Part shown: in pieces, positions 4,669-28,544 of the stretch
Position numbering within the stretch: position 1 is the first letter of the stretch
Layout: each line of letters begins with the position of its first letter
Virus record (IMG/VR): IMGVR_UViG_3300042914_002933
Span: 1 to 28,544 of that record
DNA length: 28,544 nt
Direction: 5' to 3' (one strand)
Source of the DNA: a virus
The notes under the pieces: generated by a model
What the model was told of the DNA's origin: nothing
Seen by the model: the letters and a program-made list of their open reading frames with translations, nothing else
Databases searched by the model: none
Made by a program: the position numbers and the translations under genes

Positions 4669-5123
4669 TACACAACAGTTATGTCGTCGTTTACAACAAA
4701 CCCTCCTCTAACAATAGTCTTGTACGTTCCGCTCACAACTGATTGAATATCATACACATACCTTCCAGCAGGAACCTGCTTCATAGTGTTATGCGAACCA
4801 GTTATAGTCACATTACCGCTGTCGTCAACCACTATTGGCTCAAACGTAAGGTTTGTCACAGGAGCCTGTCCCTCTTCCTGTCTGGTTTCTTTTGCGTCTG
4901 GAGTGCTTATAACCACAGGCCCTTTCATCAAGGCTGGCTCCACGGAGGCGGGGTCTTGTACTGGCTGTTCTCTGACCTGCATCAAGAACGTGTACCCAAG
5001 GGTAGACAATTCCATGGGGACGCCATCAGAGTCCTTAAGTCTTAGATTAAGCAAGAACGTGTCTCCCTTCTTACAGACTATGTCAAGCTTGTCGGCTGTA
5101 TCTAATGTAACCTTGCTGGCCAT
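4668..5123 (-). CDS. Probable baseplate or tail adaptor protein (BppU N-terminal-like)
   Basis: A 151-residue protein with the pattern [17 protein letters not shown] then [14 protein letters not shown]. This resembles the N-terminal domain of BppU-like baseplate proteins and other phage proteins that open with a beta-sandwich reading 'kGDtf.l.l.lkd.dG.p.dLtgyt..mqvR'. The C-terminal part ([33 protein letters not shown]) is typical of these small structural domains. It sits between portal and fibre genes, in TAATG overlap with both neighbours, which fits a piece joining fibres to the tail. The family assignment comes from motif memory and is moderate. Confidence 0.6.
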
Positions 5124-7519
5124 TATATTATGTTTGATTGTTTACGCTGTTCTATAAGCTTTGACTGTTCTATTGCCTGCTTCGTGACCCTCTCATCCTT
5201 TCTGTTTTCTTTGAAAACCTCTATCTTTTCCTTAAACTCTTTGTCGTCTGTCTTAAAACCAAGCATGGCCTGAGCCTTTAGTAGCTCAATTTGCATTCTG
5301 TTTTGATGTCTTACGGCTTCTAATTGAGCTTCAATCTGAGCCTGCAACTGCATTTTTTGAGCTTCAATCTGAGCCTCCATCTGCATCTCCTGCATCTTGG
5401 CCTGTGAAGTTGCTTGAGCAGACTGCTGTTGTATCTGAGCCTGCATCTGCGAGTTCTGCATGGCCTGCTCCTGAAGCCTCTTCATGCGCTTCTTGCGACG
5501 AGCAATTAACAGCATCTCAGCCTGATTGACGTCCTTCATGTTGCGTATGGCTATGGCATCCTCTATGTCAAGTTCCTTCTGCTGAAGAGAAATCTGTATG
5601 TTCTGCTCAAGATACTGTCTGTCCTTATCCTCCATGTCCTTCACCACCTGCACCCCAAAATTGTACATAGGGAGATTGCTGAATGACGAAAGGACATTCA
5701 TGTTCTCCTTACCTATAGCATTTTCATACACCCTGAAGATGACGGAGTCAGTTGGGAGAATCTGGATACACTTGACAACATCCTCGCACACTTTTTTGAA
5801 CAGAACCATAGAGGCGTTGGTTATGTCGTATATAGCGTTGTTGGCAGCAGCCAGAGCCTGCTCTCTAACCCCGACAAGGGCCTCTCCTTTTGGTGATGAA
5901 GCATCCATTACCTCGTTGATTCCAGTCACATCACGAATCATCCTTAGGTAGTGATTGTATATACCTATGAGTTCGTTTATGTTTCTGATGCTGTTGCCAA
6001 TCTCTCTAATCGGTGGATTCTGGAACCCTCCTTCTGGGTTCTTACTTCTATAGTAGAAAACACCAGTCTGCTCATAGATGTCGTGCAGGTCCAGGGGCTG
6101 TAGCTCACCACCCTTGCCAAGCTGCACATTCTCCAGGCCCTCAATATCTATGATAAGCCCATCAGGCTTTGCCTTGGCTATGGCCTGCTGTATCTTCAGG
6201 TGTGTGAGTTGTAACATATCAGCAAACCCTATACAGCTATCCACCATGCTCTTCGGCATCATCTGCATCAGGTTGGTTGAGATGGCGGAATAAGACATAC
6301 GCGCCTTTGATATGTCGTGTATGTTCTTTGGTATGTTGGTGACCTTTCCGTACCCAAACAAGTAGTCGTCGCAGTCGAGTATGTAGCTGCCCCCGTAAAC
6401 GGTGGCTATAGTCATCATATGAGGTCTGCGCTCATAAACACTACCAGGTCTTTCTTTGTACTCAAATCCCTTGTAGAAGAAGTTCACGTTCCCGTATCTG
6501 TTCTCTTTCTCTTCGAAGTACATATTGTCAACTGAGATAAACTCGAAGTCAAGAACATCTACCATATACTCGTCATAGCCATATATATTCTTCTTAAGTC
6601 TGTCGTCGTATCTGTACTTGTCTATACCAGAAGGGTCATTCCCAGTTCTGTTTTTAACCTTATAGGCAATTTTCTTCAGCGTCTCCTCGTCAATCTCCCC
6701 GTTAGATATTCTTCTAAGTTCATCTATAGAGATTCTCTTTATGCTTCCCGCATAGATGATGTCATCAAAGTTGGGGTCTTCTGTATAGCTGTGAACAAAT
6801 CTTGCTGGGTCCACGTAATCCAGGACTATACCTGTGTTGGGGTCGTTTCTACGTTTCACAACAGCCATGCCTATAGAGGCAAGGTCATTGACGCATCTGC
6901 GGTATGTGCCGTCGTTGAAGTTGTTCCACGACAGCGTCATATTGGTTCCAATCTGTGCAGCAATCTCTGCGTCAGTCTTTATGTTCGTCTCAAGAAGTAT
7001 CTCTGACTCCTCGAGCGTCTCTGGAAGTTGTTCTGGGTCTATGTCAAGCACAACGCCAGTCTGTTGCTTCAGCTGGATGAGTTGCTCTCTGGCCTCTACC
7101 TGCATCTGAATCCTTTTCTTCTGCTCATTTTTTTCAGAAGAAGACAGCGGGTCAACGGCCTCAAGATTAGGGTATGGGTCTCTCGACAGAATCTTGTTGA
7201 CCACGACGCGTACAAACTTCGGCAGTATAGGAACTGGGGTGAAGTCTATGTTTAGTAAGCTACCGTCGTTGCTATTAGGGTCAAGAGTGTGAAGCAGTTG
7301 CTTGTATATGGAGGTGTCCTGAGTTCCGTTGGCATAGTTTCTTGAACGCTCGAACGTAGAGTTTCTCTTGGAGAACAATGAGTTTGTGTCATATATCTTC
7401 CCCCACTGAGACTCTATGGCCTTGGCATACTTGATGCCGTACTCCTTGCTTGCCTTTACAGAGGCATCTGCCAAGGGGTCTGGAAACCCTCCTGTGTTCT
7501 TGTTTTCTTTATTGTACAT
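5123..7519 (-). CDS. Portal protein
   Basis: A 798-residue protein directly downstream of terL with the features of a large portal (head-tail connector). The N-terminal region includes NYANGTQDTSIYKQLL, the central body is mixed alpha/beta, and residues from about 650 onward form a long charged Gln-rich helical segment (QMQAQIQQQSAQATSQ) that would be a coiled coil or barrel. Portals form dodecameric rings through which DNA is packaged by TerL. The length exceeds classic siphovirus portals and is closer to podovirus-type ones. It has an ATG start; a TATATTTG promoter-like box lies 43 bases upstream. The call rests on position, size and general resemblance. Confidence 0.75.
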   Translation of the reverse strand: MYNKENKNTGGFPDPLADASVKASKEYGIKYAKAIESQWGKIYDTNSLFSKRNSTFERSRNYANGTQDTSIYKQLLHTLDPNSNDGSLLNIDFTPVPILPKFVRVVVNKILSRDPYPNLEAVDPLSSSEKNEQKKRIQMQVEAREQLIQLKQQTGVVLDIDPEQLPETLEESEILLETNIKTDAEIAAQIGTNMTLSWNNFNDGTYRRCVNDLASIGMAVVKRRNDPNTGIVLDYVDPARFVHSYTEDPNFDDIIYAGSIKRISIDELRRISNGEIDEETLKKIAYKVKNRTGNDPSGIDKYRYDDRLKKNIYGYDEYMVDVLDFEFISVDNMYFEEKENRYGNVNFFYKGFEYKERPGSVYERRPHMMTIATVYGGSYILDCDDYLFGYGKVTNIPKNIHDISKARMSYSAISTNLMQMMPKSMVDSCIGFADMLQLTHLKIQQAIAKAKPDGLIIDIEGLENVQLGKGGELQPLDLHDIYEQTGVFYYRSKNPEGGFQNPPIREIGNSIRNINELIGIYNHYLRMIRDVTGINEVMDASSPKGEALVGVREQALAAANNAIYDITNASMVLFKKVCEDVVKCIQILPTDSVIFRVYENAIGKENMNVLSSFSNLPMYNFGVQVVKDMEDKDRQYLEQNIQISLQQKELDIEDAIAIRNMKDVNQAEMLLIARRKKRMKRLQEQAMQNSQMQAQIQQQSAQATSQAKMQEMQMEAQIEAQKMQLQAQIEAQLEAVRHQNRMQIELLKAQAMLGFKTDDKEFKEKIEVFKENRKDERVTKQAIEQSKLIEQRKQSNII

Positions 7520-7561: not shown

Positions 7562-7569
7562 CAAATATA
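7562..7569 (-). promoter_or_regulatory. Bacteroidota-type -7 box upstream of portal
   Basis: The minus strand reads TATATTTG, matching TAnnTTTG, in the gap between the terL stop and the portal ATG at 7519. No TTG is found 19-21 bases upstream, so it is a weak or -7-only promoter candidate. It could uncouple portal expression from terL. Confidence 0.4.
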
Positions 7570-17170: not shown

Positions 17171-17594
17171 GGCTACAAAAATAAAGAAACAATTTATGTT
17201 CCGTGAGTTCCTGTATAAAGATAAGGAAACGCGGGAGTCAAACTATCTGAAGTACCACAAGATGGTTAAGAAGTCTGTGGTAGACGAGCACGACATAAAC
17301 AACTCTATCCTGGATTTTTTGGTGTGGGCATATGACATGGAGTTCTTCACCACCAGGCACGTTTGCAAGGACCTGAAGATGCGTCAGAGCAACTACTATG
17401 AGCGGGTGATTATGATTGCCCTACGCAAGGGACTTATATATCATTACTTCAAGCGTATGGAAACCTTCAACACGTTTGAGGGCGCACAGTTTCGGGAGGA
17501 CGGGGGACACAGCTACAGGGTTAGGTACGCCCTTACCCAGCGTGGGAGGATGATTGTAAAGAAGTTCTACGACAGACTTCAGAAGGGAGAGTAG
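17169..17594 (+). CDS. Winged-helix-like DNA-binding protein
   Basis: A 141-residue protein counted from ATG at 17169; ATG at 17196 is an alternative with an A-rich leader. The order is helix (NNSILDFLVWAYDMEFFTTRHVCKDL), helix (KMRQSNYYERVIMIALRKGLIYHYFKR), then strand-turn-strand (GHSYRVRYALTQRGRMIVKKFYDRL). This fits a MarR/PadR-type winged helix ending in 'Y.LT.rGr..v..f', so a transcription factor is plausible. It is one of only two plus-strand genes in the late block. Its promoter must lie inside the opposing gene, and its last 16 bases overlap the 3' end of the M15 gene, allowing antisense interference. Confidence 0.65.
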   Translation: MATKIKKQFMFREFLYKDKETRESNYLKYHKMVKKSVVDEHDINNSILDFLVWAYDMEFFTTRHVCKDLKMRQSNYYERVIMIALRKGLIYHYFKRMETFNTFEGAQFREDGGHSYRVRYALTQRGRMIVKKFYDRLQKGE

Positions 17595-18247: not shown

Positions 18248-18279
18248 CAAAGATAAAAAATTTTTTCATCCGCACACAA
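18248..18279 (-). promoter_or_regulatory. Bacteroidota-type promoter for the 64-aa gene and M15 peptidase
   Basis: The minus strand carries TTG (18279-18277), 21 bases, then TATCTTTG (18255-18248), a full match to TTG-N19-21-TAnnTTTG, 14 bases before the ATG at 18233. An AT-rich spacer strengthens the call. Confidence 0.72.
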
Positions 18280-18331
18280 TACCGATTGTCGTCCTGCGTT
18301 TCGATATTAGATAAACCCAAAAACCTCTCTC

Positions 18332-18877
18332 ATGAAAACGACAGCTTTGTTTCTCTTGTCGGCCCTGGCGCTGACGTCTTTGGCCTCGGGCCCAGGTAAG
18401 GCACAGTCTAACGTGTCACCTGTGTCCTTCCGTATCATCCTCAACCACGACGGCAACCTGCTCTCAAGCTCTGCCAACGACTCTATCGTGTGGGAGTTGT
18501 GGGTGGAGACGCAGGGAATTCGCGTGTACTCTAACGAGACCTTCGAGGAGCGTGTGACACGCTACGGAATTACTGACGAGTTTATCGAGAACTCCAAACA
18601 AGAGAACGCTCCGTTCATAGCACACAACCAGGGCAGCACCTACTTCACGTACACCACGAACAAGGCTGGGCTGCACCACATCGAGGCATACAACAAGTAC
18701 ACTGGCGAGCTGGTGGGGTACACGGTACTCATGCTCGACAGCTTCTTCACCCTCCCCCACTACAGCGGAAAGAAGACAGAGTGGCCGTTGATTCTGGAGC
18801 GGGGAGGCAAGCTCAACGCCTGGAGCCCATTCACGAATAACACCTACTCAGGACGATTTAAGCTGGGGGTGCAGTAA
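18332..18877 (+). CDS. Secreted protein of unknown function
   Basis: A 181-residue protein with a clear signal peptide (MKTTALFLLSALALTSLASG, cleavage probably near residues 19-25, no lipobox Cys). The mature part is beta-rich (STYFTYTTNKAGLHHIEAYNK), resembling an Ig-like or C2-like sandwich, but I cannot name a family. It is one of two plus-strand genes in the late block and is GC-richer than its neighbours. An independently transcribed exported product fits a moron that alters the host envelope or excludes other phages. That role is inference. Confidence 0.7.
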   Translation: MKTTALFLLSALALTSLASGPGKAQSNVSPVSFRIILNHDGNLLSSSANDSIVWELWVETQGIRVYSNETFEERVTRYGITDEFIENSKQENAPFIAHNQGSTYFTYTTNKAGLHHIEAYNKYTGELVGYTVLMLDSFFTLPHYSGKKTEWPLILERGGKLNAWSPFTNNTYSGRFKLGVQ

Positions 18878-20653: not shown

Positions 20654-20661
20654 CAAATATA
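20654..20661 (-). promoter_or_regulatory. TATATTTG -7 box directly before the first late gene
   Basis: The minus strand reads TATATTTG, then CCGT, then ATG. The -33 region is poor. If used, transcription would begin at or next to the start codon. Confidence 0.42.
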
Positions 20662-22126: not shown

Positions 22127-22151
22127 GGGGAGCGGGAACCGCTCGCTCCCC
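22127..22151 (+). other. 25-base dual-stem hairpin, copy 1
   Basis: GGGGAGCG ... CGCTCCCC forms an 8-bp outer stem with a 9-base loop. The same bases can instead form GAGCGG-GAA-CCGCTC (6 bp, 3-base loop), excluding the outer stem. No T run follows, so it is not a standard terminator. An identical copy is at 22422-22446. Confidence 0.7.
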
Positions 22152-22178
22152 ACCATCACCCTCAAACACACACACACC

Positions 22179-22412
22179 ATGTCCACCACATCAATCTCCC
22201 GCCGCTCTCCCGTCATGCTCACATTCAGTGACGGAACCTACATGTTGTCCATTCGGAAGCACATCCAATTTGGCCACTACATCGTGGAACTGCGGGACCC
22301 CGATAACATAGCGATTCACGAGCAAAGGTTCGAATCGATGGCCGATGCATGCGGGTTCGCGGAACGTTTGGGAGGCGGAACATTCCAAGTAATCTGCAAC
22401 ATCCAACTCTGA
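22179..22412 (+). CDS. 77-aa hypothetical protein
   Basis: MSTTSISRRSPVMLTFSDGT, then strands (YMLSIRKHIQFGHYIVELRD) and a helix (RFESMADACGFAERLGG), a small alpha/beta domain ending in strand TFQVICNIQL. No known family. It is preceded by a CA-rich leader and flanked on both sides by the identical dual-stem hairpin, so it could be a separable unit. 'l.gg.y.v.c' endings are common in small early phage proteins of unknown role. Confidence 0.65.
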   Translation: MSTTSISRRSPVMLTFSDGTYMLSIRKHIQFGHYIVELRDPDNIAIHEQRFESMADACGFAERLGGGTFQVICNIQL

Positions 22413-22421
22413 ACCCATCAC

Positions 22422-22446
22422 GGGGAGCGGGAACCGCTCGCTCCCC
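22422..22446 (+). other. 25-base dual-stem hairpin, copy 2
   Basis: Identical in all 25 bases to 22127-22151, again just after a stop codon and before a CA-rich leader. The surrounding ACCCATCA is also shared. Identity beyond what pairing needs suggests recent duplication or a sequence-specific reader. Confidence 0.7.
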
Positions 22447-22471
22447 TTCATCACCCATCAAACACACACCC

Positions 22472-22570
22472 ATGCTCTACACAATGGAATCCTACGCATC
22501 GCTCATGTTCCCAACAATGCTGTGCATCTCTGCTGTCTTGTTGTTAATCTATGAGCGCAAACAACAATAA
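22472..22570 (+). CDS. 32-aa single-TM microprotein
   Basis: ATG at 22472 after a CAAACACACACCC leader. The peptide is MLYTMESYASLMFPTM, then the hydrophobic LCISAVLLLIY, then ERKQQ: one membrane helix with a charged C-terminal cap. It ends CAA-TAA, which forms the first box of the next gene's two-box element. Short TM peptides among early genes can act on host membrane proteins, but the role is unknown. Confidence 0.62.
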   Translation: MLYTMESYASLMFPTMLCISAVLLLIYERKQQ

Positions 22571-22611
22571 TCCAAACATCTCTCACGTTAACCCATCAAA
22601 CACACACAGCT
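22565..22611 (+). promoter_or_regulatory. Two-box element 1 (before gene 22612)
   Basis: CAATAATC at 22565, GTTAA at 22587 (22 bases start to start), then CCCATCAAACACACACAGCT and ATG 25 bases after box 2. Box 1 includes the stop codon of gene 22472-22570. Confidence 0.75.
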
Positions 22612-22791
22612 ATGAATAGAGTGGAAATCGTCGGCACGAAGTTCAAGGTATTGATTGACTTCTTACCAATTACGAATCAGTACTACGTTTCTGTCATCAG
22701 CGTCAAGCACGACCTGCTCATCGGCACAACGCAGTACGGCACCCATGAGGAGGCGTACGCATTCGTGGGAAACGTCATGGACATCCAATAA
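22612..22791 (+). CDS. 59-aa hypothetical protein
   Basis: ATG at 22612 (MNRVEIVGTKFKVLIDFLPI), TAA at 22789-22791. A small alpha/beta fold is likely: strands KVLIDFL and YYVSVISVKHDLLIG, then a helix THEEAYAFVGNVMD. The 'gth.eA..fv' ending resembles short early phage proteins of unknown function. The two-box element, the CA-rich leader and the packing support it as real. It ends D-I-Q, with CAATAAAC across its stop. Confidence 0.68.
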   Translation: MNRVEIVGTKFKVLIDFLPITNQYYVSVISVKHDLLIGTTQYGTHEEAYAFVGNVMDIQ

Positions 22792-22822
22792 ACCATCATT
22801 ACCCATCAAACACACAGAAAAC

Positions 22823-23122
22823 ATGTCATCATACATCTCAACCATCTACGTGTTCGACACGCTGTCCATCGCAGGATGCTACCTTCCTGCTCTCATCAAC
22901 GGAGATGCATCGGGCATCGACGACAACGAATTCGCTGAACTCGACAAGTTCCTGATGGAACTACGCAACAGAATTCGTGAGCGCCACGATGCCGACGAGG
23001 AGATTAGCTATGACCTTGTGGTGACAAGTGACGAGTCATTCATAGGCATGTGCGAAGTTAGTGGGCTGTACTCTGACTGCCACGATGTGAATGTGATTGC
23101 ACATGTATCTCGTCGGTCATAA
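22823..23122 (+). CDS. 99-aa acidic hypothetical protein
   Basis: Start at 22823 (MSSYISTIYVFDTLSIAGCY) chosen for its CA-rich leader; in-frame ATG codons further upstream overlap the previous gene. Asp/Glu-rich centre (IDDNEFAELDKFLMELRNRIRERHDADEE) and strands near the C-terminus (SYDLVVTSDESF). Phages often make acidic early proteins that mimic DNA or titrate host factors; this is only a thought. The leader has a CAATAAAC-like box but no GTTAA. Confidence 0.66.
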   Translation: MSSYISTIYVFDTLSIAGCYLPALINGDASGIDDNEFAELDKFLMELRNRIRERHDADEEISYDLVVTSDESFIGMCEVSGLYSDCHDVNVIAHVSRRS

Positions 23123-23140
23123 AAAAGTTGCATCAGCACA

Positions 23141-23186
23141 CAATAAACAGATTCCTCATAACGTTAACCTATCAAACACACACACC
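23141..23186 (+). promoter_or_regulatory. Two-box element 2 (before gene 23187)
   Basis: CAATAAAC at 23141, GTTAA at 23163 (22 apart), ATG 24 bases after box 2 behind ATCAAACACACACACC. Here the upstream stop lies well before box 1, so the box exists independently of a stop codon. Confidence 0.8.
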
Positions 23187-23336
23187 ATGAACAATCAAGA
23201 GATGCTGTTTTACGCACACAATTTCAAGGGATTTGCGGTTTCCGTTCGAGCAAGGAACGAAAGAGATGCAAGAGAATTCTTCCGCAATCACTTTGCAGTG
23301 AAGACATTGAGAGGATTCGAAATTTGGAGAGGATAA
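23187..23336 (+). CDS. 49-aa basic hypothetical protein
   Basis: Start at 23187 (MNNQEMLFYAHNFKGFAVSV) set by the two-box element. The remainder RARNERDAREFFRNHFAVKTLRGFEIWRG is basic with a helix A-R-E-F-F, typical of a small 'vrAr.e.dAreffr.hf.v' domain. Many Arg residues suggest nucleic-acid contact, without proof. Confidence 0.68.
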   Translation: MNNQEMLFYAHNFKGFAVSVRARNERDAREFFRNHFAVKTLRGFEIWRG

Positions 23337-23340
23337 CACA

Positions 23341-23386
23341 CAATAAACAGAAATCACTACACGTTAATCTATCAAACACACACACA
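23341..23386 (+). promoter_or_regulatory. Two-box element 3 (before gene 23387)
   Basis: CAATAAAC at 23341, GTTAA at 23363 (22 apart), ATG 24 bases after box 2. It is nearly the same as element 2 apart from the 14-base spacer. Confidence 0.8.
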
Positions 23387-23644
23387 ATGGAAACTAACAT
23401 TCAAAAATTTCTCGCCGAGAACTTCGATGCAGTTCAGGTGAAGCGGTCAGTGCAGGACGATGAATACGTCATCCTATGCACCTTGCCAACTCTGCTCGAT
23501 GTAGCTAAAGTTCAGTTCGGGAGCGAGGAGTACCACGAATTGTTCGATGCCATGCAGGAACTATTCGAATGCCCAGTATTTGTCAGCGACTACGACGATG
23601 TGGTAGCCGTAAGTGAAGATTTCTTTGAAAATTACTACCAATAA
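23387..23644 (+). CDS. 85-aa acidic hypothetical protein
   Basis: METNIQKFLAENFDAVQVKR opens it; it continues as alternating strands and helices (EYVILCTLPTLLDVAKVQF, EEYHELFDAMQELFECPVFV) and ends in an acidic DYDDVVAVSEDFFENYYQ. No family is recognised. It ends in Gln (CAA TAA); the two-box element of the next gene starts a few bases later. Confidence 0.68.
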   Translation: METNIQKFLAENFDAVQVKRSVQDDEYVILCTLPTLLDVAKVQFGSEEYHELFDAMQELFECPVFVSDYDDVVAVSEDFFENYYQ

Positions 23645-23647
23645 GCA

Positions 23648-23693
23648 CAATAAACATCAATCACCACACGTTAACCTATTAAACACACAGACC
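23648..23693 (+). promoter_or_regulatory. Two-box element 4 (before gene 23694)
   Basis: CAATAAAC at 23648, GTTAA at 23670 (22 apart), ATG 24 bases after box 2 behind ATTAAACACACAGACC. Confidence 0.8.
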
Positions 23694-23936
23694 ATGAAAG
23701 TTCAAGATTTGATTTGCTACCTTGACCTGAATCCGAAATACGAATGGGTTGAGATGGAATTCTTTGGCCGAAGAGTACTTGACTGGGCATTCCTCGGGAA
23801 AGAAGGAGCAATGGATTTCTTGCATGGCATTGAACCACAACGCCACGAGTCCATGTCTTTCCACATCGTCGGAACAAAGGATGGAGACGTATTAAGAGTT
23901 GATGTGGTAGAGAAAAAAAACAACGTCACACAATAA
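23694..23936 (+). CDS. 80-aa hypothetical protein
   Basis: MKVQDLICYLDLNPKYEWVE, then MEFFGRRVLDWAFLGKEGAMDF and strands ending GTKDGDVLRVDVVEKKNNVTQ. The opening 'mkvqdLi..L...p.y.v' is common in small phage proteins that begin with a helix and a Pro-containing strand. The function is unknown. Its last codons ACA CAA TAA make up part of the next gene's first box. Confidence 0.68.
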   Translation: MKVQDLICYLDLNPKYEWVEMEFFGRRVLDWAFLGKEGAMDFLHGIEPQRHESMSFHIVGTKDGDVLRVDVVEKKNNVTQ

Positions 23937-23978
23937 ACAGATTCCCTCTCACGTTTAACATTCAAACACACACACACA
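23931..23978 (+). promoter_or_regulatory. Two-box element 5 (before gene 23979)
   Basis: CAATAAAC at 23931, GTTTAA at 23953 (22 apart), ATG 26 bases after box 2. One extra T in box 2 and a longer CA run. Box 1 contains the TAA of the preceding gene. Confidence 0.78.
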
Positions 23979-24281
23979 ATGAACACGATTCTTTTCGAAA
24001 CAGAAGCAAACAAGCGTGCGTCAGACGCACGATTGGCCAAGTCAAAGAAGCAGGTTGTTGACTACATGGTCATCCTCGTAGAGGAACTGGAGTCCTTGAA
24101 CGAAGAACTGCTACGAATCAAGGCATTGCAACAGATGAATGCCATGTGCGTCTTGAGCGGCAGTGAGTCAGCGCCAACAGAAGAAGTTGAGTCCCTTGAT
24201 AAACGGGAGCAAGAAATTCGCATGGAGATTACGAACAAGAAGAATTACCTCATCGTCCTCATCGAATCTCAAGCACAATGA
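23979..24281 (+). CDS. 100-aa coiled-coil protein
   Basis: MNTILFETEANKRASDARLA begins a protein that is nearly all helix. KSKKQVVDYMVILVEELESLNEELLRIKALQQ and EEVESLDKREQEIRMEITNKKNYLIVLIES form two long heptad-like segments joined by a short Ser-rich turn, an antiparallel helical hairpin or dimeric coiled coil. No family is recognised. Its TGA overlaps the next ATG (ATGA), one of the few coupled pairs in this block. Confidence 0.7.
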   Translation: MNTILFETEANKRASDARLAKSKKQVVDYMVILVEELESLNEELLRIKALQQMNAMCVLSGSESAPTEEVESLDKREQEIRMEITNKKNYLIVLIESQAQ

Positions 24282-24445
24282 TTAACGCACTCTTGACCTT
24301 CAGGAACTCTGCCGGACGCACCTTCGGTAGCCCAAAGAACTTCTCTGACCAAACGCACATCGATAACTACATCAACTTCATGATGCGTAAAGGACACAAG
24401 TTCGTGGACATCTTCTACGCAGACGACAACGATGCACCACAATAA
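24278..24445 (+). CDS. 55-aa hypothetical protein
   Basis: ATG at 24278 overlaps the TGA of the coiled-coil gene. MINALLTFRNSAGRTFGSPK, then HIDNYINFMMRKGHKFVDIFYADD and the end NDAPQ. The pattern 'sD..hi.nYi.fm...GhK.vd.f' looks like a short helical motif conserved in small phage proteins. The final Gln plus stop supplies the next CAATAAAC box. It has no leader element of its own and is probably co-translated. Confidence 0.68.
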   Translation: MINALLTFRNSAGRTFGSPKNFSDQTHIDNYINFMMRKGHKFVDIFYADDNDAPQ

Positions 24446-24485
24446 ACGCACCCAGTCAAACGTTAAACAATAAACACACACAGCT
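24440..24485 (+). promoter_or_regulatory. Two-box element 6 (before gene 24486)
   Basis: CAATAAAC at 24440 (includes the upstream stop), GTTAA at 24462 (22 apart), ATG 24 bases after box 2. Confidence 0.8.
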
Positions 24486-24722
24486 ATGATTACGACATCA
24501 AATTCAAAGGTCTCTGTTTCGGACATCATCCGTTACGAGGAAGGGGACATGACCGTACGGGAGATGGTATACTTCTTCTCCCTGCTCATCAGGTCAGGCA
24601 TGTTGAACAGGATGCAGGGTTCATACGGACGTATGGCATCGCAGATGCTCCAGTACGGATTGCTCGATGCGAGCGGTCAGGTGAACCGCGATAACCTCGA
24701 AGAGTTTATCAGCAGATTTTAA
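24486..24722 (+). CDS. 78-aa small phage protein with Q-G-S-Y-G-R motif
   Basis: After MITTSNSKVSVSDIIRYEEG comes DMTVREMVYFFSLLIRSGMLNRMQGSYGRMASQMLQYGLLD. The order 'dii.yE.Gem...e...ff..Li.sG....lQG.YGR.a..li..GLl' recurs in short phage proteins, often from Bacteroidota phages. The function is not known; the helical build would suit a protein-protein adaptor. The start is fixed by two-box element 6. Confidence 0.75.
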   Translation: MITTSNSKVSVSDIIRYEEGDMTVREMVYFFSLLIRSGMLNRMQGSYGRMASQMLQYGLLDASGQVNRDNLEEFISRF

Positions 24723-24727
24723 CATCT

Positions 24728-24751
24728 GTTAACACAACAAACCCACACACA
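24728..24751 (+). promoter_or_regulatory. Single GTTAA box (before gene 24752)
   Basis: GTTAA at 24728 with the ATG exactly 24 bases later and a CA-rich leader, but no CAATAAAC 22 bases upstream (TTATCAGC is there instead). A half-element and a natural test of whether box 1 matters. Confidence 0.6.
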
Positions 24752-25201
24752 ATGTCAGTTCAATCAATCTCCAACCTGATGCCGAGCAAGGCATACTTGG
24801 ACACCATTCGTAACGGCGGCATCTCCGTCAACCACAGAGGAGAGACACCCCCATCCACGGGATTCATGGTAGGCGGTGCTGACGAGGACAGCGAGAGCCA
24901 CATCGTACAATTCACGGATTTCTATGAGTTCTCCCGTGTGTTCGAACAACTGCTCACAAAGTTGAGCAACCTGCCGGAACCGGAGCGCGAATGCATGTAC
25001 GTTGGCACGTGGTTAAACAACAACTTTGTTGACCAATCACGTCCATCGCCGCTCACTATCATCGAGTTGGAGTTGTCTATGCACATCTCCTCACTTGAGA
25101 AAGCCATGAAGCTTGGCAAGGCGTTCAATCAGTTGTATATCTATGACCTTGCGGAAGGCAAGAGCATCAAGGTAGAAAAAGATGTGCCTCAAGCACAATA
25201 A
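24752..25201 (+). CDS. 149-aa hypothetical protein
   Basis: MSVQSISNLMPSKAYLDTIR opens a mixed protein with an acidic middle (GGADEDSESHIVQFTDFYEFSRVFEQLL) and a helical second half (LTIIELELSMHISSLEKAMKLGKAFNQL) before a strand pair YIYDLAEGKSIKVEKD. No family recognised. It ends A-Q, with CAATAAAC across the stop. Confidence 0.66.
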   Translation: MSVQSISNLMPSKAYLDTIRNGGISVNHRGETPPSTGFMVGGADEDSESHIVQFTDFYEFSRVFEQLLTKLSNLPEPERECMYVGTWLNNNFVDQSRPSPLTIIELELSMHISSLEKAMKLGKAFNQLYIYDLAEGKSIKVEKDVPQAQ

Positions 25202-25241
25202 ACCATTCAGGTAACCCGTTAATTAAGAAACACACACAGCC
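25196..25241 (+). promoter_or_regulatory. Two-box element 7 (before the FISUMP pair)
   Basis: CAATAAAC at 25196 (includes the upstream stop), GTTAA at 25218 (22 apart), ATG 24 bases after box 2. It probably drives both FISUMP genes. Confidence 0.8.
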
Positions 25242-25769
25242 ATGAAAACAATTCAAATCGGTTCACAAGTGTGGACTACAAAGAACCTGCGAGTATTCAA
25301 GTTTCGCAATGGAGACCCCATCCCGATTATTCAGGACAACGAGGAGTGGAGCAAACTCGAATCACCTGCCATGTGCATCAACCCTGACAACGGAGAATGT
25401 TACTACAACTGGTACGCAGTCAACGACTCGCGATGTCTTGCACCTATAGGATTCCATGTGCCTTCAAATGACGAGTGGCAACAGCTTGTTGACTACTGCG
25501 GTGGTAATGAGAAAGCGGGCAACTTGTTGAAATCGACGAAAAAGTGGGATGGCGCAGGAGCCTCCAAAGGATTCAATGCTATCCCTTCAGGCTTCCGAGC
25601 CCACTACAACGGGAACTTCTACGACCAAGGCAACAACGGGCATTGGTGGTCTTACTCCCCGAGTGGAGCAGACGCTTGGTATCGCTGGCTGTGCTTTGAA
25701 GACCCGTATGTCTTCCGTGACTACTCCAACCAACGAAACGGCTTCTCTGTACGCTTAATCAAAGATTAA
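25242..25769 (+). CDS. FISUMP-domain protein, copy 1
   Basis: A 175-residue protein matching the Fibrobacter succinogenes major paralogous (FISUMP) domain along its whole length: IGSQVWTTKNLRV (residues 5-17), GECYYNWYAV (51-60), APIGFHVPSNDEW (67-79), FNAIPSGFRA (111-120), HWWSYSPSG (134-142) and the end NGFSVRLIKD (166-175). The fold is C-type-lectin-like, used for ligand binding in surface proteins. Oddly there is no signal peptide, so it may be an intracellular or virion binding protein. Copy 2 follows after 11 bases. Confidence 0.88.
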   Translation: MKTIQIGSQVWTTKNLRVFKFRNGDPIPIIQDNEEWSKLESPAMCINPDNGECYYNWYAVNDSRCLAPIGFHVPSNDEWQQLVDYCGGNEKAGNLLKSTKKWDGAGASKGFNAIPSGFRAHYNGNFYDQGNNGHWWSYSPSGADAWYRWLCFEDPYVFRDYSNQRNGFSVRLIKD

Positions 25770-25780
25770 AACACCCAACT

Positions 25781-26320
25781 ATGAAAACTATTCAAATTGG
25801 TTCACAAGTGTGGACAAGAAAAAACCTCCGAGTGTTCAAGTTCCGTAACGGAGACCCTATCCCAATCATTCAGGATTCCGACGAGTGGGCATTATCTCAA
25901 GAAGCCGCTATGTGTATCAACCCTTACAATGGAGAATGCTATTACAACTGGCATGCTGTCGCTGACAAACGAGGTCTTGCCCCCAAGGGATTCCACGTTC
26001 CGTCAGATATGGAGTGGTATACGTTAATCAAAGTATACGATGGTTTTGATGTCGCGGCTAAATTGTTGAAGTCCCCTAAAAAGTGGGATGGCGCGGGAGT
26101 CCCCAAAGGATTTAATGTCAAAGGATTCGATGCCATTCCAAGTGGATACCGCACACACAATGGCGACATCATCACTCGCGAATACAGCGGGTTTTGGTGG
26201 ACTTCCACTCCATGTGGTTCAGAAGCATTTTGCTACTACATGTTCTCTGGGGTCTCGATTGCACACCGAGATAGCGGCACCTTTCGAAACGGCTTCTCTG
26301 TCCGCTTAATCAAAGATTAA
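25781..26320 (+). CDS. FISUMP-domain protein, copy 2
   Basis: A 179-residue paralogue of the gene before it: same start (MKTIQIGSQVWT), same motifs (GECYYNWHAV, APKGFHVPSDMEW, FDAIPSGYR, FWWTSTPCGSEA) and the same end NGFSVRLIKD. The segment between the WW motif and the end differs strongly (YYMFSGVSIAHRDSGTFR here against YRWLCFEDPYVFRDYSNQ), where ligand contacts are expected in this fold. It has no two-box element of its own, only AACACCCAACT before the ATG, so it is probably co-transcribed. No signal peptide. Confidence 0.88.
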   Translation: MKTIQIGSQVWTRKNLRVFKFRNGDPIPIIQDSDEWALSQEAAMCINPYNGECYYNWHAVADKRGLAPKGFHVPSDMEWYTLIKVYDGFDVAAKLLKSPKKWDGAGVPKGFNVKGFDAIPSGYRTHNGDIITREYSGFWWTSTPCGSEAFCYYMFSGVSIAHRDSGTFRNGFSVRLIKD

Positions 26321-26331
26321 AATACACAGCC

Positions 26332-26559
26332 ATGAAAATCTACGTTCAAGCAAACAGCAAGAAAGAAGTGAACAACTGGCTCGCTTCAGGAATCCACATC
26401 TACGGATATAACTATTCGATGTTCGAGGATGCAGGATGGCACGACATCTCAAACCTGAACGATGGGGATGTAGTGGCCATCTTCTCCAAGACGATGAACG
26501 GCTCCCCAGTCCCAAAGTCATGGGGTTCCTATGATGCCAAGAAGAACAGATTAAAGTGA
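26332..26559 (+). CDS. 75-aa hypothetical protein
   Basis: MKIYVQANSKKEVNNWLASG, then IHIYGYNYSMFEDAGWHDISNLNDGDVVAIFSKTMNGSPVPKSWGSYDAKKNRLK. The GWHDI...L.dGDVVAIFSK segment suggests a small beta domain. The leader ATCAAAGATTAAAATACACAGCC nearly copies that between the two FISUMP genes, so this is the third member of that transcription unit. The function is unknown. Confidence 0.68.
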   Translation: MKIYVQANSKKEVNNWLASGIHIYGYNYSMFEDAGWHDISNLNDGDVVAIFSKTMNGSPVPKSWGSYDAKKNRLK

Positions 26560-26567
26560 TGGGCGCA

Positions 26568-26613
26568 CAATAAAAGACACACGACACACGTTACATAATA
26601 AACACACACAGCA
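26568..26613 (+). promoter_or_regulatory. Two-box element 8 (before gene 26614)
   Basis: CAATAAAA at 26568, GTTA-C at 26590 (22 apart), ATG 24 bases after box 2. Both boxes deviate by one base, and it is the last copy in the window. Confidence 0.7.
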
Positions 26614-26853
26614 ATGTCACAAGAAAAGAAATACCCCAACGGACTGCGAGAGTACCTTGAGACACTCGTCATGATGTCAGTTGAACTGGAGGCAAGAGAC
26701 CTGCCCATGCATCTCATCAACTACATAGACCATGCTATCGATTGGTCGGAAGAGTTTGAGAAGATGTACAGCGGCAGAAACATGAGGATATGGGATGGTG
26801 ATTGGTTGGATGCAATCCAAGAATTTGTAGATAAAAAGATTTCAGAATCATGA
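26614..26853 (+). CDS. 79-aa hypothetical protein
   Basis: MSQEKKYPNGLREYLETLVM starts an acidic, helical protein (LVMMSVELEARDLPMHLINYIDHAIDWSEEFEKMY) ending in DWLDAIQEFVDKKISES. Trp residues in the second half could pack a small helical bundle. No family is recognised. Its TGA overlaps the next ATG. Confidence 0.68.
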   Translation: MSQEKKYPNGLREYLETLVMMSVELEARDLPMHLINYIDHAIDWSEEFEKMYSGRNMRIWDGDWLDAIQEFVDKKISES

Positions 26854-28022: not shown

Positions 28023-28259
28023 ATGATTGCAGATGTGGTATTTAAGAACGCATACGGGGCAGATGTCTGCCTCACCATCCACGATGTTAACGACAGCGAC
28101 AACTGGCACTTCGTTACATCCTCAATAGACAACCAATCTTATGCCATCAACATCTTCAGAGAGTCAGAGTCAATGCGATGCTACGTCCACTACGTCTACG
28201 GAGCAGACGACATCGACCATCTCAAGCGATTCGAACCCGAATCATTTTCAATCGTTTGA
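28023..28259 (+). CDS. 78-aa hypothetical protein
   Basis: MIADVVFKNAYGADVCLTIH, then NDSDNWHFVTSSIDNQSYAINIFRESESMRCYVHYVYGADDID and the end FEPESFSIV. Alternating strands suggest a small beta sandwich. No family is recognised. Its 3' part overlaps the start of the frame that encodes the DnaA domain IV-like protein. Confidence 0.64.
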   Translation: MIADVVFKNAYGADVCLTIHDVNDSDNWHFVTSSIDNQSYAINIFRESESMRCYVHYVYGADDIDHLKRFEPESFSIV

Positions 28260-28544
28260 CGAGACCCTCGCCAACTACGAGCAGGAACTTCACAAACGTG
28301 TGTGTTTCAATCAGATAACTGCTGTACGAAATACTTTCTACGCAATTACTGGGCACCACGACAATAAAAGCAGGAAGGAGTACGTTGTTAAACCAAGGGC
28401 GGCACTGCTCTGCGCCTTGTCCACCAAGTACACACTAACTGACGTGGCAAAGGCGTTTGACATACACCACGCCACGGTGATTCACCACCGCAAGCACCAC
28501 GAAGGAAACCTATCAGCATGGAAGGGATACAAGGAAATCTTTGA
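28141..28544 (+). CDS. Stand-alone DnaA domain IV-like protein (partial, runs off right edge)
   Basis: From about 28306 the frame reads ITAVRNTFYAITGHHDNKSR, then VVKPRAALLCALSTKYTLTDVAKAFDIHHATVIHHRK. This follows DnaA domain IV, with the basic loop K-S-R, the PR that opens the next helix, and a signature like '.l.dVa..F...H.TViH..rk' that contacts the DnaA box. No AAA+ domain precedes it. The start is uncertain: the first in-frame ATG (28141) would add a Ser/Thr-rich stretch overlapping the upstream gene by 119 bases; GTG at 28300 is an alternative. It may bind DnaA boxes to control replication or transcription. Confidence 0.72.
   Translation, partial: MPSTSSESQSQCDATSTTSTEQTTSTISSDSNPNHFQSFDETLANYEQELHKRVCFNQITAVRNTFYAITGHHDNKSRKEYVVKPRAALLCALSTKYTLTDVAKAFDIHHATVIHHRKHHEGNLSAWKGYKEIF

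Follow-up and report, generated by a model that had tools for sequence, protein, structure and literature searches.

A two-box element of fixed geometry precedes the small genes of an Elemovirus-like phage and is probably a clade-specific promoter

The viral record IMGVR_UViG_3300042914_002933 provides a stretch of 28,544 nucleotides (positions 1 to 28,544 of that record, hereafter the window) in which an asymmetric element composed of two short boxes, CAATAA and CGTTA, recurs at a fixed internal distance before the genes of a plus-strand block. Each of these elements is probably a transcription promoter that is specific to one clade of phages and has a -35/-10-like geometry. We favor this reading because the box spacing is held in divergent relatives, a second class of the element exists, the footprint of one second-class site at 18277 is preserved in three genomes, and the leaders that follow the boxes are unstructured. 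An initial annotation of the same DNA had proposed a promoter that differs from the Bacteroidota TAnnTTTG type, and both points are supported by the data described below. Its suggestion that a phage-specific factor reads the element has so far gained no support.

Judged from its sequence, the 28.5-kb window is a fragment of the genome of an uncultured Elemovirus-like podovirus. Its portal and terminase have matches in PHROG families 6547 and 6681. Terminase identity is 47% with MW202828, a podovirus from Manatee Spring whose genome is complete, and 40% with the Flavobacterium Elemovirus phages. The genomes of MW202828 and of the Elemovirus phages are both about 60 kb. Structural genes occupy the minus strand from position 1 to about 21.7 kb of the window, and a block of small genes occupies the plus strand from 21.8 kb onward. 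In the relative G028, this block continues into ERF, exonuclease, primase/helicase, and ribonucleotide reductase genes. From the order and arrangement of these genes we infer that the plus-strand block is expressed early, and we use the term in this sense. Gene calls are mechanical open reading frames (ORFs) throughout, and the records are not certified complete.

Sequence and geometry of the class I element

The copies in the small-gene block, designated class I, are located as follows.

22612..26853, plus strand: small-gene block containing the class I elements
22565..22591, plus strand: class I element 1, CAATAA-N15-CGTTAA; next ATG at 22612
23141..23167, plus strand: class I element 2; ATG at 23187
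23341..23367, plus strand: class I element 3; ATG at 23387
23648..23674, plus strand: class I element 4; ATG at 23694
23931..23957, plus strand: class I element 5, box 2 CGTTTA; ATG at 23979; spacer identical in the orthologue at G028 1291
24440..24466, plus strand: class I element 6; ATG at 24486; stop codon of the preceding ORF inside box 1
25196..25222, plus strand: class I element 7; ATG at 25242; stop codon of the preceding ORF inside box 1
26568..26594, plus strand: class I element 8, box 2 CGTTAC; ATG at 26614
22786..22822, plus strand: degenerate ninth copy, 11 bases shorter, with box 1 and the ATCAAAC leader kept and box 2 lost; ATG at 22823

The initial annotation had placed box 1 at 22565, 23141, 23341, 23648, 23931, 24440, 25196, and 26568, and all eight positions are correct. 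As it also claimed, box 2 starts exactly 22 bases after the start of box 1 in all eight sites, and the distance from the start of box 2 to the ATG is 24 bases at six sites, 25 at one, and 26 at another. The boxes as originally drawn stand only in part: the near-invariant core is CAATAA...CGTT, with starts 21 bases apart, but the AC that follows CAATAA varies in relatives. A third fixed block, ATCAAAC (or AATAAAC or ATTAAAC), which lies 8 bases after the start of GTTAA, had been overlooked, as had the degenerate copy at 22786 and a related single site at 18277.

With box 1 given as CACAATAA and box 2 as CGTTA, the element is best described as C-A-CAATAA, 15 bases, CGTTA(A), 3-4 bases, ATCAAAC, a CA-rich leader, and the ATG. 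Among 22 aligned class I sites from three genomes, CGTT is invariant and CAATAA is nearly so, and the 15-base gap carries little information. Almost all early genes that are separated from their neighbor by a real gap possess their own copy. The G028 leader that corresponds to the degenerate copy at 22786 (site 926) has both boxes.

Departure of the pattern from chance

The pattern CAATAA-N15-CGTT[A/T] occurs eight times in the window, compared to a mean of 0.02 and a maximum of 1 in 200 order-3 Markov resamples. When the 6-kb early region alone is resampled, 0.002 occurrences are expected against the eight observed. A scan of distances from 5 to 60 in four genomes yielded 24 exact CAATAA/CGTTA pairs at a distance of 21 and at most four at each other distance, and three of the four pairs at a distance of 20 turned out to belong to the second class described below. 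The opposite strand carries no comparable two-box site.

The initial annotation had further held that the box-to-box distance is steadier than the box-to-ATG distance. This contrast is weak in the window alone, where the ATG lies 46, 47, or 48 bases from CAATAA, but it is clear over 31 sites from five genomes. The box-to-box distance is 21 in all of them, a value set partly by the search rule, although the other distances scanned were empty for class I; the ATG lies at 44 (two sites), 45 (one), 46 (16), 47 (six), or 48 (six) in this tally, which counts orthologous sites and does not represent 31 independent events.

A widespread host promoter was considered and rejected, as an 18-base pattern gave 10 single matches in 257 billion bases of bacterial genomes, which is about the number expected by chance, with many located within genes. 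A first pattern search of viral contigs with CACAATAAAC-N14-CGTTAA gave 24 single, chance-like matches in unrelated contigs.

Conservation among relatives and exchange of gene cassettes

The element recurs in two further lineages, represented by G029/G003 and by G031/G032, as well as in the near relative G028. G029 is a 65-kb record of the same virus as G003; G027 and G028 count as near relatives on account of their early genes. When 2.9 million viral contigs were scanned for the pattern, three contigs beyond G003 (G029, G031, and G032) proved to carry the element repeatedly; a fifth contig, G030, has a single match within a long open frame. G028 and G027 have five copies each. In all element-bearing relatives, every copy precedes a start codon and lies on the coding strand; the starts of CAATAA and CGTTA are 21 bases apart, and the spacers diverge.

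A matrix scan, which the initial annotation had suggested, was carried out in both directions. With the matrix trained on the window alone, the nine G003 sites are the nine highest-scoring matches (scores 16.3-33.5, next 13.1). With the matrix trained on G003 alone, seven of the window's eight sites come out on top (16.3-41.4, next 7.1), the site at 25196 being missed; on G028 this matrix recovers four of five sites, the lowest of which (10.5) is near background (9.9), and misses the site at 2556. In most cases, the sites thus recovered stand well clear of background. Failure of the spacing to hold in related genomes had been named as part of the grounds for abandoning a promoter, and we find the distance of 21 retained in separate lineages despite the diverged spacers. 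In the distant relatives G006, G008, G010, G011, MW202828, and elemoA, the matrix scan gave no element match above background. G033 and G035, which belong to a separate group, carry orthologues of the window genes at 26332 and 26614 in a tight operon with overlapping starts and no element. Thus, the element is a property of the clade and not of the genes it precedes.

Some neighboring features are also evident from these comparisons. The genes at 25242-25769 and 25781-26320 are in tandem and similar to each other; the first matches the Pfam family Fib_succ_major, and both are homologous to a single G035 gene. The protein at the end of the window (28141-28544) has a weak match to the C-terminal, DNA-binding part of DnaA and is complete in G028 (L119:3896-4594). 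In G003 (L116, about 6780-6830), tandem 'gttatagagagtgga'-like copies lie between the late and early blocks and possibly mark a control region.

The relatives also differ in gene content at the elements. In G032 (L187, 17737-18646) compared to G031 (L186), about 0.9 kb comprising two genes with their elements has been gained or lost at one place, with the join inside an element; G032 is the genome that has the two additional genes. In addition, G028 and the window share one element before different genes. These observations indicate that block genes move as promoter-plus-gene units, and the element repeats may help them to do so. The same observations, together with two G029 elements that are identical over 43 bases, would fit a recombination linker, retained solely through homology-driven cassette exchange at gene borders. 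However, homologous exchange needs identical stretches, whereas here the spacers differ and conservation is limited to the short boxes and the fixed distance between them. Furthermore, no cassette surrounds the single orthologous site at 18277, which is nevertheless conserved. We consider a recombination linker highly improbable.

A second class of the element

Scanning other distances in G029 revealed four sites of the form CAATAA-N13/14-GCGTTATA, with box starts 20 bases apart in three sites and 19 in the other. The ATG lies 45, 51, 62, and 83 bases from box 1 at these class II sites, and their spacers are not A/C-rich. One of them is followed, inside the late region, by a lone gene on the plus strand, and the window has the corresponding arrangement.

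18277..18301, plus strand: class II element with the sequence CAATAC-N14-CGTTT and 20 bases from box start to box start; followed by the lone gene 18332-18877; site orthologues in genomes g2 and G029
18332..18877, plus strand: lone plus-strand gene (181 amino acids) within the late region; g2 and G029 each have a homologue, 34% identical, behind the same element

When the sites from the window, g2, and G029 are aligned, CACACAATA and CTGCGTT are seen to be kept, and the 14-base gap is kept in length but not in sequence. This orthologue set is the clearest evidence that selection acts on the box-to-box geometry rather than on the leader. The existence of a second class with a spacing of 19-20 and a widely varying distance to the ATG supports a promoter.

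Host-type promoters on the late strand

The Bacteroidota sigma-A promoter has TTG at -33 and TAnnTTTG at -7 (PMC9723704). The block leaders contain no TAnnTTTG, in agreement with the initial annotation, and the motif is found near 0 of 27 plus-strand gene starts in the window and 1 of 32 in G029. Near minus-strand gene starts it is found in 5 of 28 cases in the window and 9 of 49 in G029 (null means of 1.5 and 1.6); the nine in G029 exceed the maximum of 200 random placements (7), and the five in the window equal the corresponding maximum. The two-box element has the reverse distribution, being present on the plus strand only. The following late-strand boxes were noted in the window.

7562..7569, minus strand: sigma-A -7 box TATATTTG before the portal gene; present also at the portal genes of G032 and G029
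17176-17183, minus strand: host-type TAnnTTTG box near a late gene start
18248..18255, minus strand: host-type box TATCTTTG, oriented divergently from the class II element at 18277; present also in g2
20654..20661, minus strand: late-strand box TATATTTG, host-type

Several late sites (TATATTTGC about 12 bases before the ATG, or before the portal gene) are identical in G032, g2, and G029, and the two putative promoter types stand back to back at 18248-18301. The late-strand boxes are close to gene starts, and their transcripts would have very short leaders.

Reading the boxes in antisense as a promoter of the Bacteroidota type was rejected by inspection, as the order and distance do not fit. 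A search of the region for E. coli-type sigma-70 promoters (TTGACA/TATAAT, spacing 16-18) gave six matches against 9.3 expected, with none at the elements.

Proposed mechanism and candidate readers

Two unlike boxes located 13-15 bases apart, A/T-rich DNA from box 2 onward, a single orientation, and a nearby start codon together make up the geometry of a bacterial promoter. We propose that box 1 (CACAATAA) takes the place of the -35 element and box 2 (CGTTA, or GCGTTATA in class II) that of the -10 element, with the gap fixed in the gene block (starts 21 apart) and 19-20 at single sites. Transcription would begin within or just past ATCAAAC, which in the block puts the start some 10-13 bases upstream of the start codon. 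The resulting leaders would be short, unstructured, and A/C-rich, and would be suited to the Shine-Dalgarno-free translation of Bacteroidota. In Flavobacterium, initiation is helped by A at -3 and -6 and by the absence of structure (PMC6847099). Folding of the eight elements yields -1.8 kcal/mol for one and no better than -1.0 kcal/mol for the other seven, with no z-score below 0. If each gene has its own promoter, it could be gained or lost with that promoter included. The main sigma-A of the host would serve the late-strand genes of the same phages and not the two-box element.

The geometry might also be expected of an operator, at which a repressor or activator would control distant promoters or block transcription in each gap, by analogy with the stoperators of mycobacteriophage L5. 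In keeping with such a role, one asymmetric site is scattered in many copies, all in a single orientation, and its fixed gap of about two helical turns fits a dimeric protein. Nevertheless, the element is not a palindrome, its two boxes are unlike in sequence, and every copy is positioned just before a start codon. Moreover, the block yielded no promoter of another type, and there is no obvious regulator gene. These features make an operator highly improbable.

If the element is a promoter, its reader would most likely be host RNA polymerase equipped either with an alternative sigma factor, such as one of the extracytoplasmic function (ECF) type, or with a phage-supplied specificity factor that is unrecognizable by sequence. 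In our view, the phage's own polymerase is a less likely reader than host polymerase guided by an alternative or phage-given specificity factor, and a host ECF-type sigma factor is as good a candidate as a phage factor. The ECF type is a candidate because a Flavobacterium motif of this type likewise has CGT in its -10 region: of the alternative motifs SM4-SM6 in F. psychrophilum, SM6 is ascribed to ECF sigma factors and has a conserved CGT at this place (PMC9723704). CGTT is present in 22 of 22 aligned class I sites and in class II.

A crAss-like phage with a virion RNA polymerase had been suspected from the terminase and portal matches. This possibility is not put forward here as a claim, given that the nearest named relatives are Elemovirus and MW202828 and that the giant LPD38 protein has no polymerase motif. 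This virion-size protein of about 2950 amino acids has LPD38 as its sole match, lacks a conserved DxDxD, and resembles no solved structure, although a very diverged enzyme might escape such comparisons. In G028 (L120:946-9828), a single ORF of about 2961 amino acids carries the LPD38 domain, and similarly placed large proteins occur in relatives up to Elemovirus. One G029 protein matches a crAss muzzle domain, and some kinship in virion parts is possible. A shared regulator gene limited to element-bearing genomes was rejected, as the composition of the candidate at G029 5113-5646 is not that of a real gene.

Evidence weighed against a promoter

Several observations count against the proposal outlined above. 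The AAC-type -35 sequence of ECF promoters is not found at a fixed place, as the bases after CAATAA are AC, GC, CA, CT, TA, or TC. Among the 73 predicted proteins of the 65-kb G029, no Pfam sigma factor or RNA polymerase was recognized. In the gene block, the distance from box 1 to the ATG is itself nearly fixed (44-48), and this interval is A/C-rich, as an RNA leader might be. Finally, the block genes at 22179 and 22473 have the CA leader without any box, and thus box and leader are separable. These two genes are preceded by two copies of a strong G+C hairpin with no T run, located at 22136-22160 (-20.9 kcal/mol, z -3.9) and at 22432-22456.

The near-constant ATG distance and the A/C-rich, unstructured leaders, along with the frequent coverage of the preceding gene's stop codon by box 1, could be explained if the block were read as one long transcript and the element were a ribosome-loading or RNA-processing signal in each gap, recognized by a protein that binds single-stranded RNA. 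This RNA-level explanation seems improbable to us. The class II boxes are kept with the ATG 45-83 bases away and with spacers that are not A/C-rich, and the site at 18277 precedes an isolated gene opposite in strand to its neighbors, where there is no upstream block transcript. CA leaders that occur without boxes are also difficult to reconcile with such a signal. In addition, box 1 lies 46 bases from the ATG, a distance to which the normal translation-initiation footprint does not reach.

Significance and comparison with known systems

Very little is known about how Bacteroidota phages start transcription. The element is a sharply defined signal in several lineages, and it divides the genome into a late strand with host-type promoters and an early block with what are probably promoters of a different type. 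It offers an exact DNA bait for the protein that would read the promoter, as well as a short promoter part that could potentially be used to drive genes in Bacteroidota. It would also be a clear example of phage genes that are gained or lost along with their own promoter. Phage T4 similarly has many individual early promoters, but these resemble host sigma-70 promoters, whereas the elements described here are not sigma-70-like.

The two-part form is shared with the Bacteroidota sigma-A promoter and with the SM4-SM6 motifs of F. psychrophilum, and SM6 and box 2 have CGT in common (PMC9723704). In contrast to those motifs, the boxes are CAATAA and CGTTA, with no TAnnTTTG and without the usual ECF AAC. 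The start-associated sequences of Cluster K mycobacteriophages are likewise short asymmetric motifs before many small phage genes of different families; half have a second conserved part upstream, and their function is not settled (PMC3203893). Those sequences lie 3-8 bases from the start codon and have an extended part that is a 17-base inverted repeat at a variable spacing, whereas the element has two unlike boxes and a fixed gap. Neither GGGATAGGAGCCC directly before the start codon nor 17-base inverted repeats were found at the elements.

Intergenic repeats before many virus genes, conserved in related viruses, are also known from halovirus HF2, in which nine repeats tested had promoter activity (PMC8707807). 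HF2 is an archaeal virus with repeats of 58 and 29 bases, unlike the two short boxes that alone are kept here. In phage N4, a polymerase carried in the virion transcribes the early genes, and that of the host transcribes the late ones (PMC4496689). The N4 virion-polymerase promoters hold a hairpin, whereas none is predicted for the elements, and no polymerase gene was recognized here. However, N4 also has many individual early promoters, and the same division of promoter types between early and late genes is suggested by our findings. It is conceivable, although rather unlikely, that a diverged virion-carried enzyme or factor reads CAATAA-N15-CGTTA early and that host sigma-A polymerase acts late, in which case these Bacteroidota podoviruses would have reached the N4 strategy independently.

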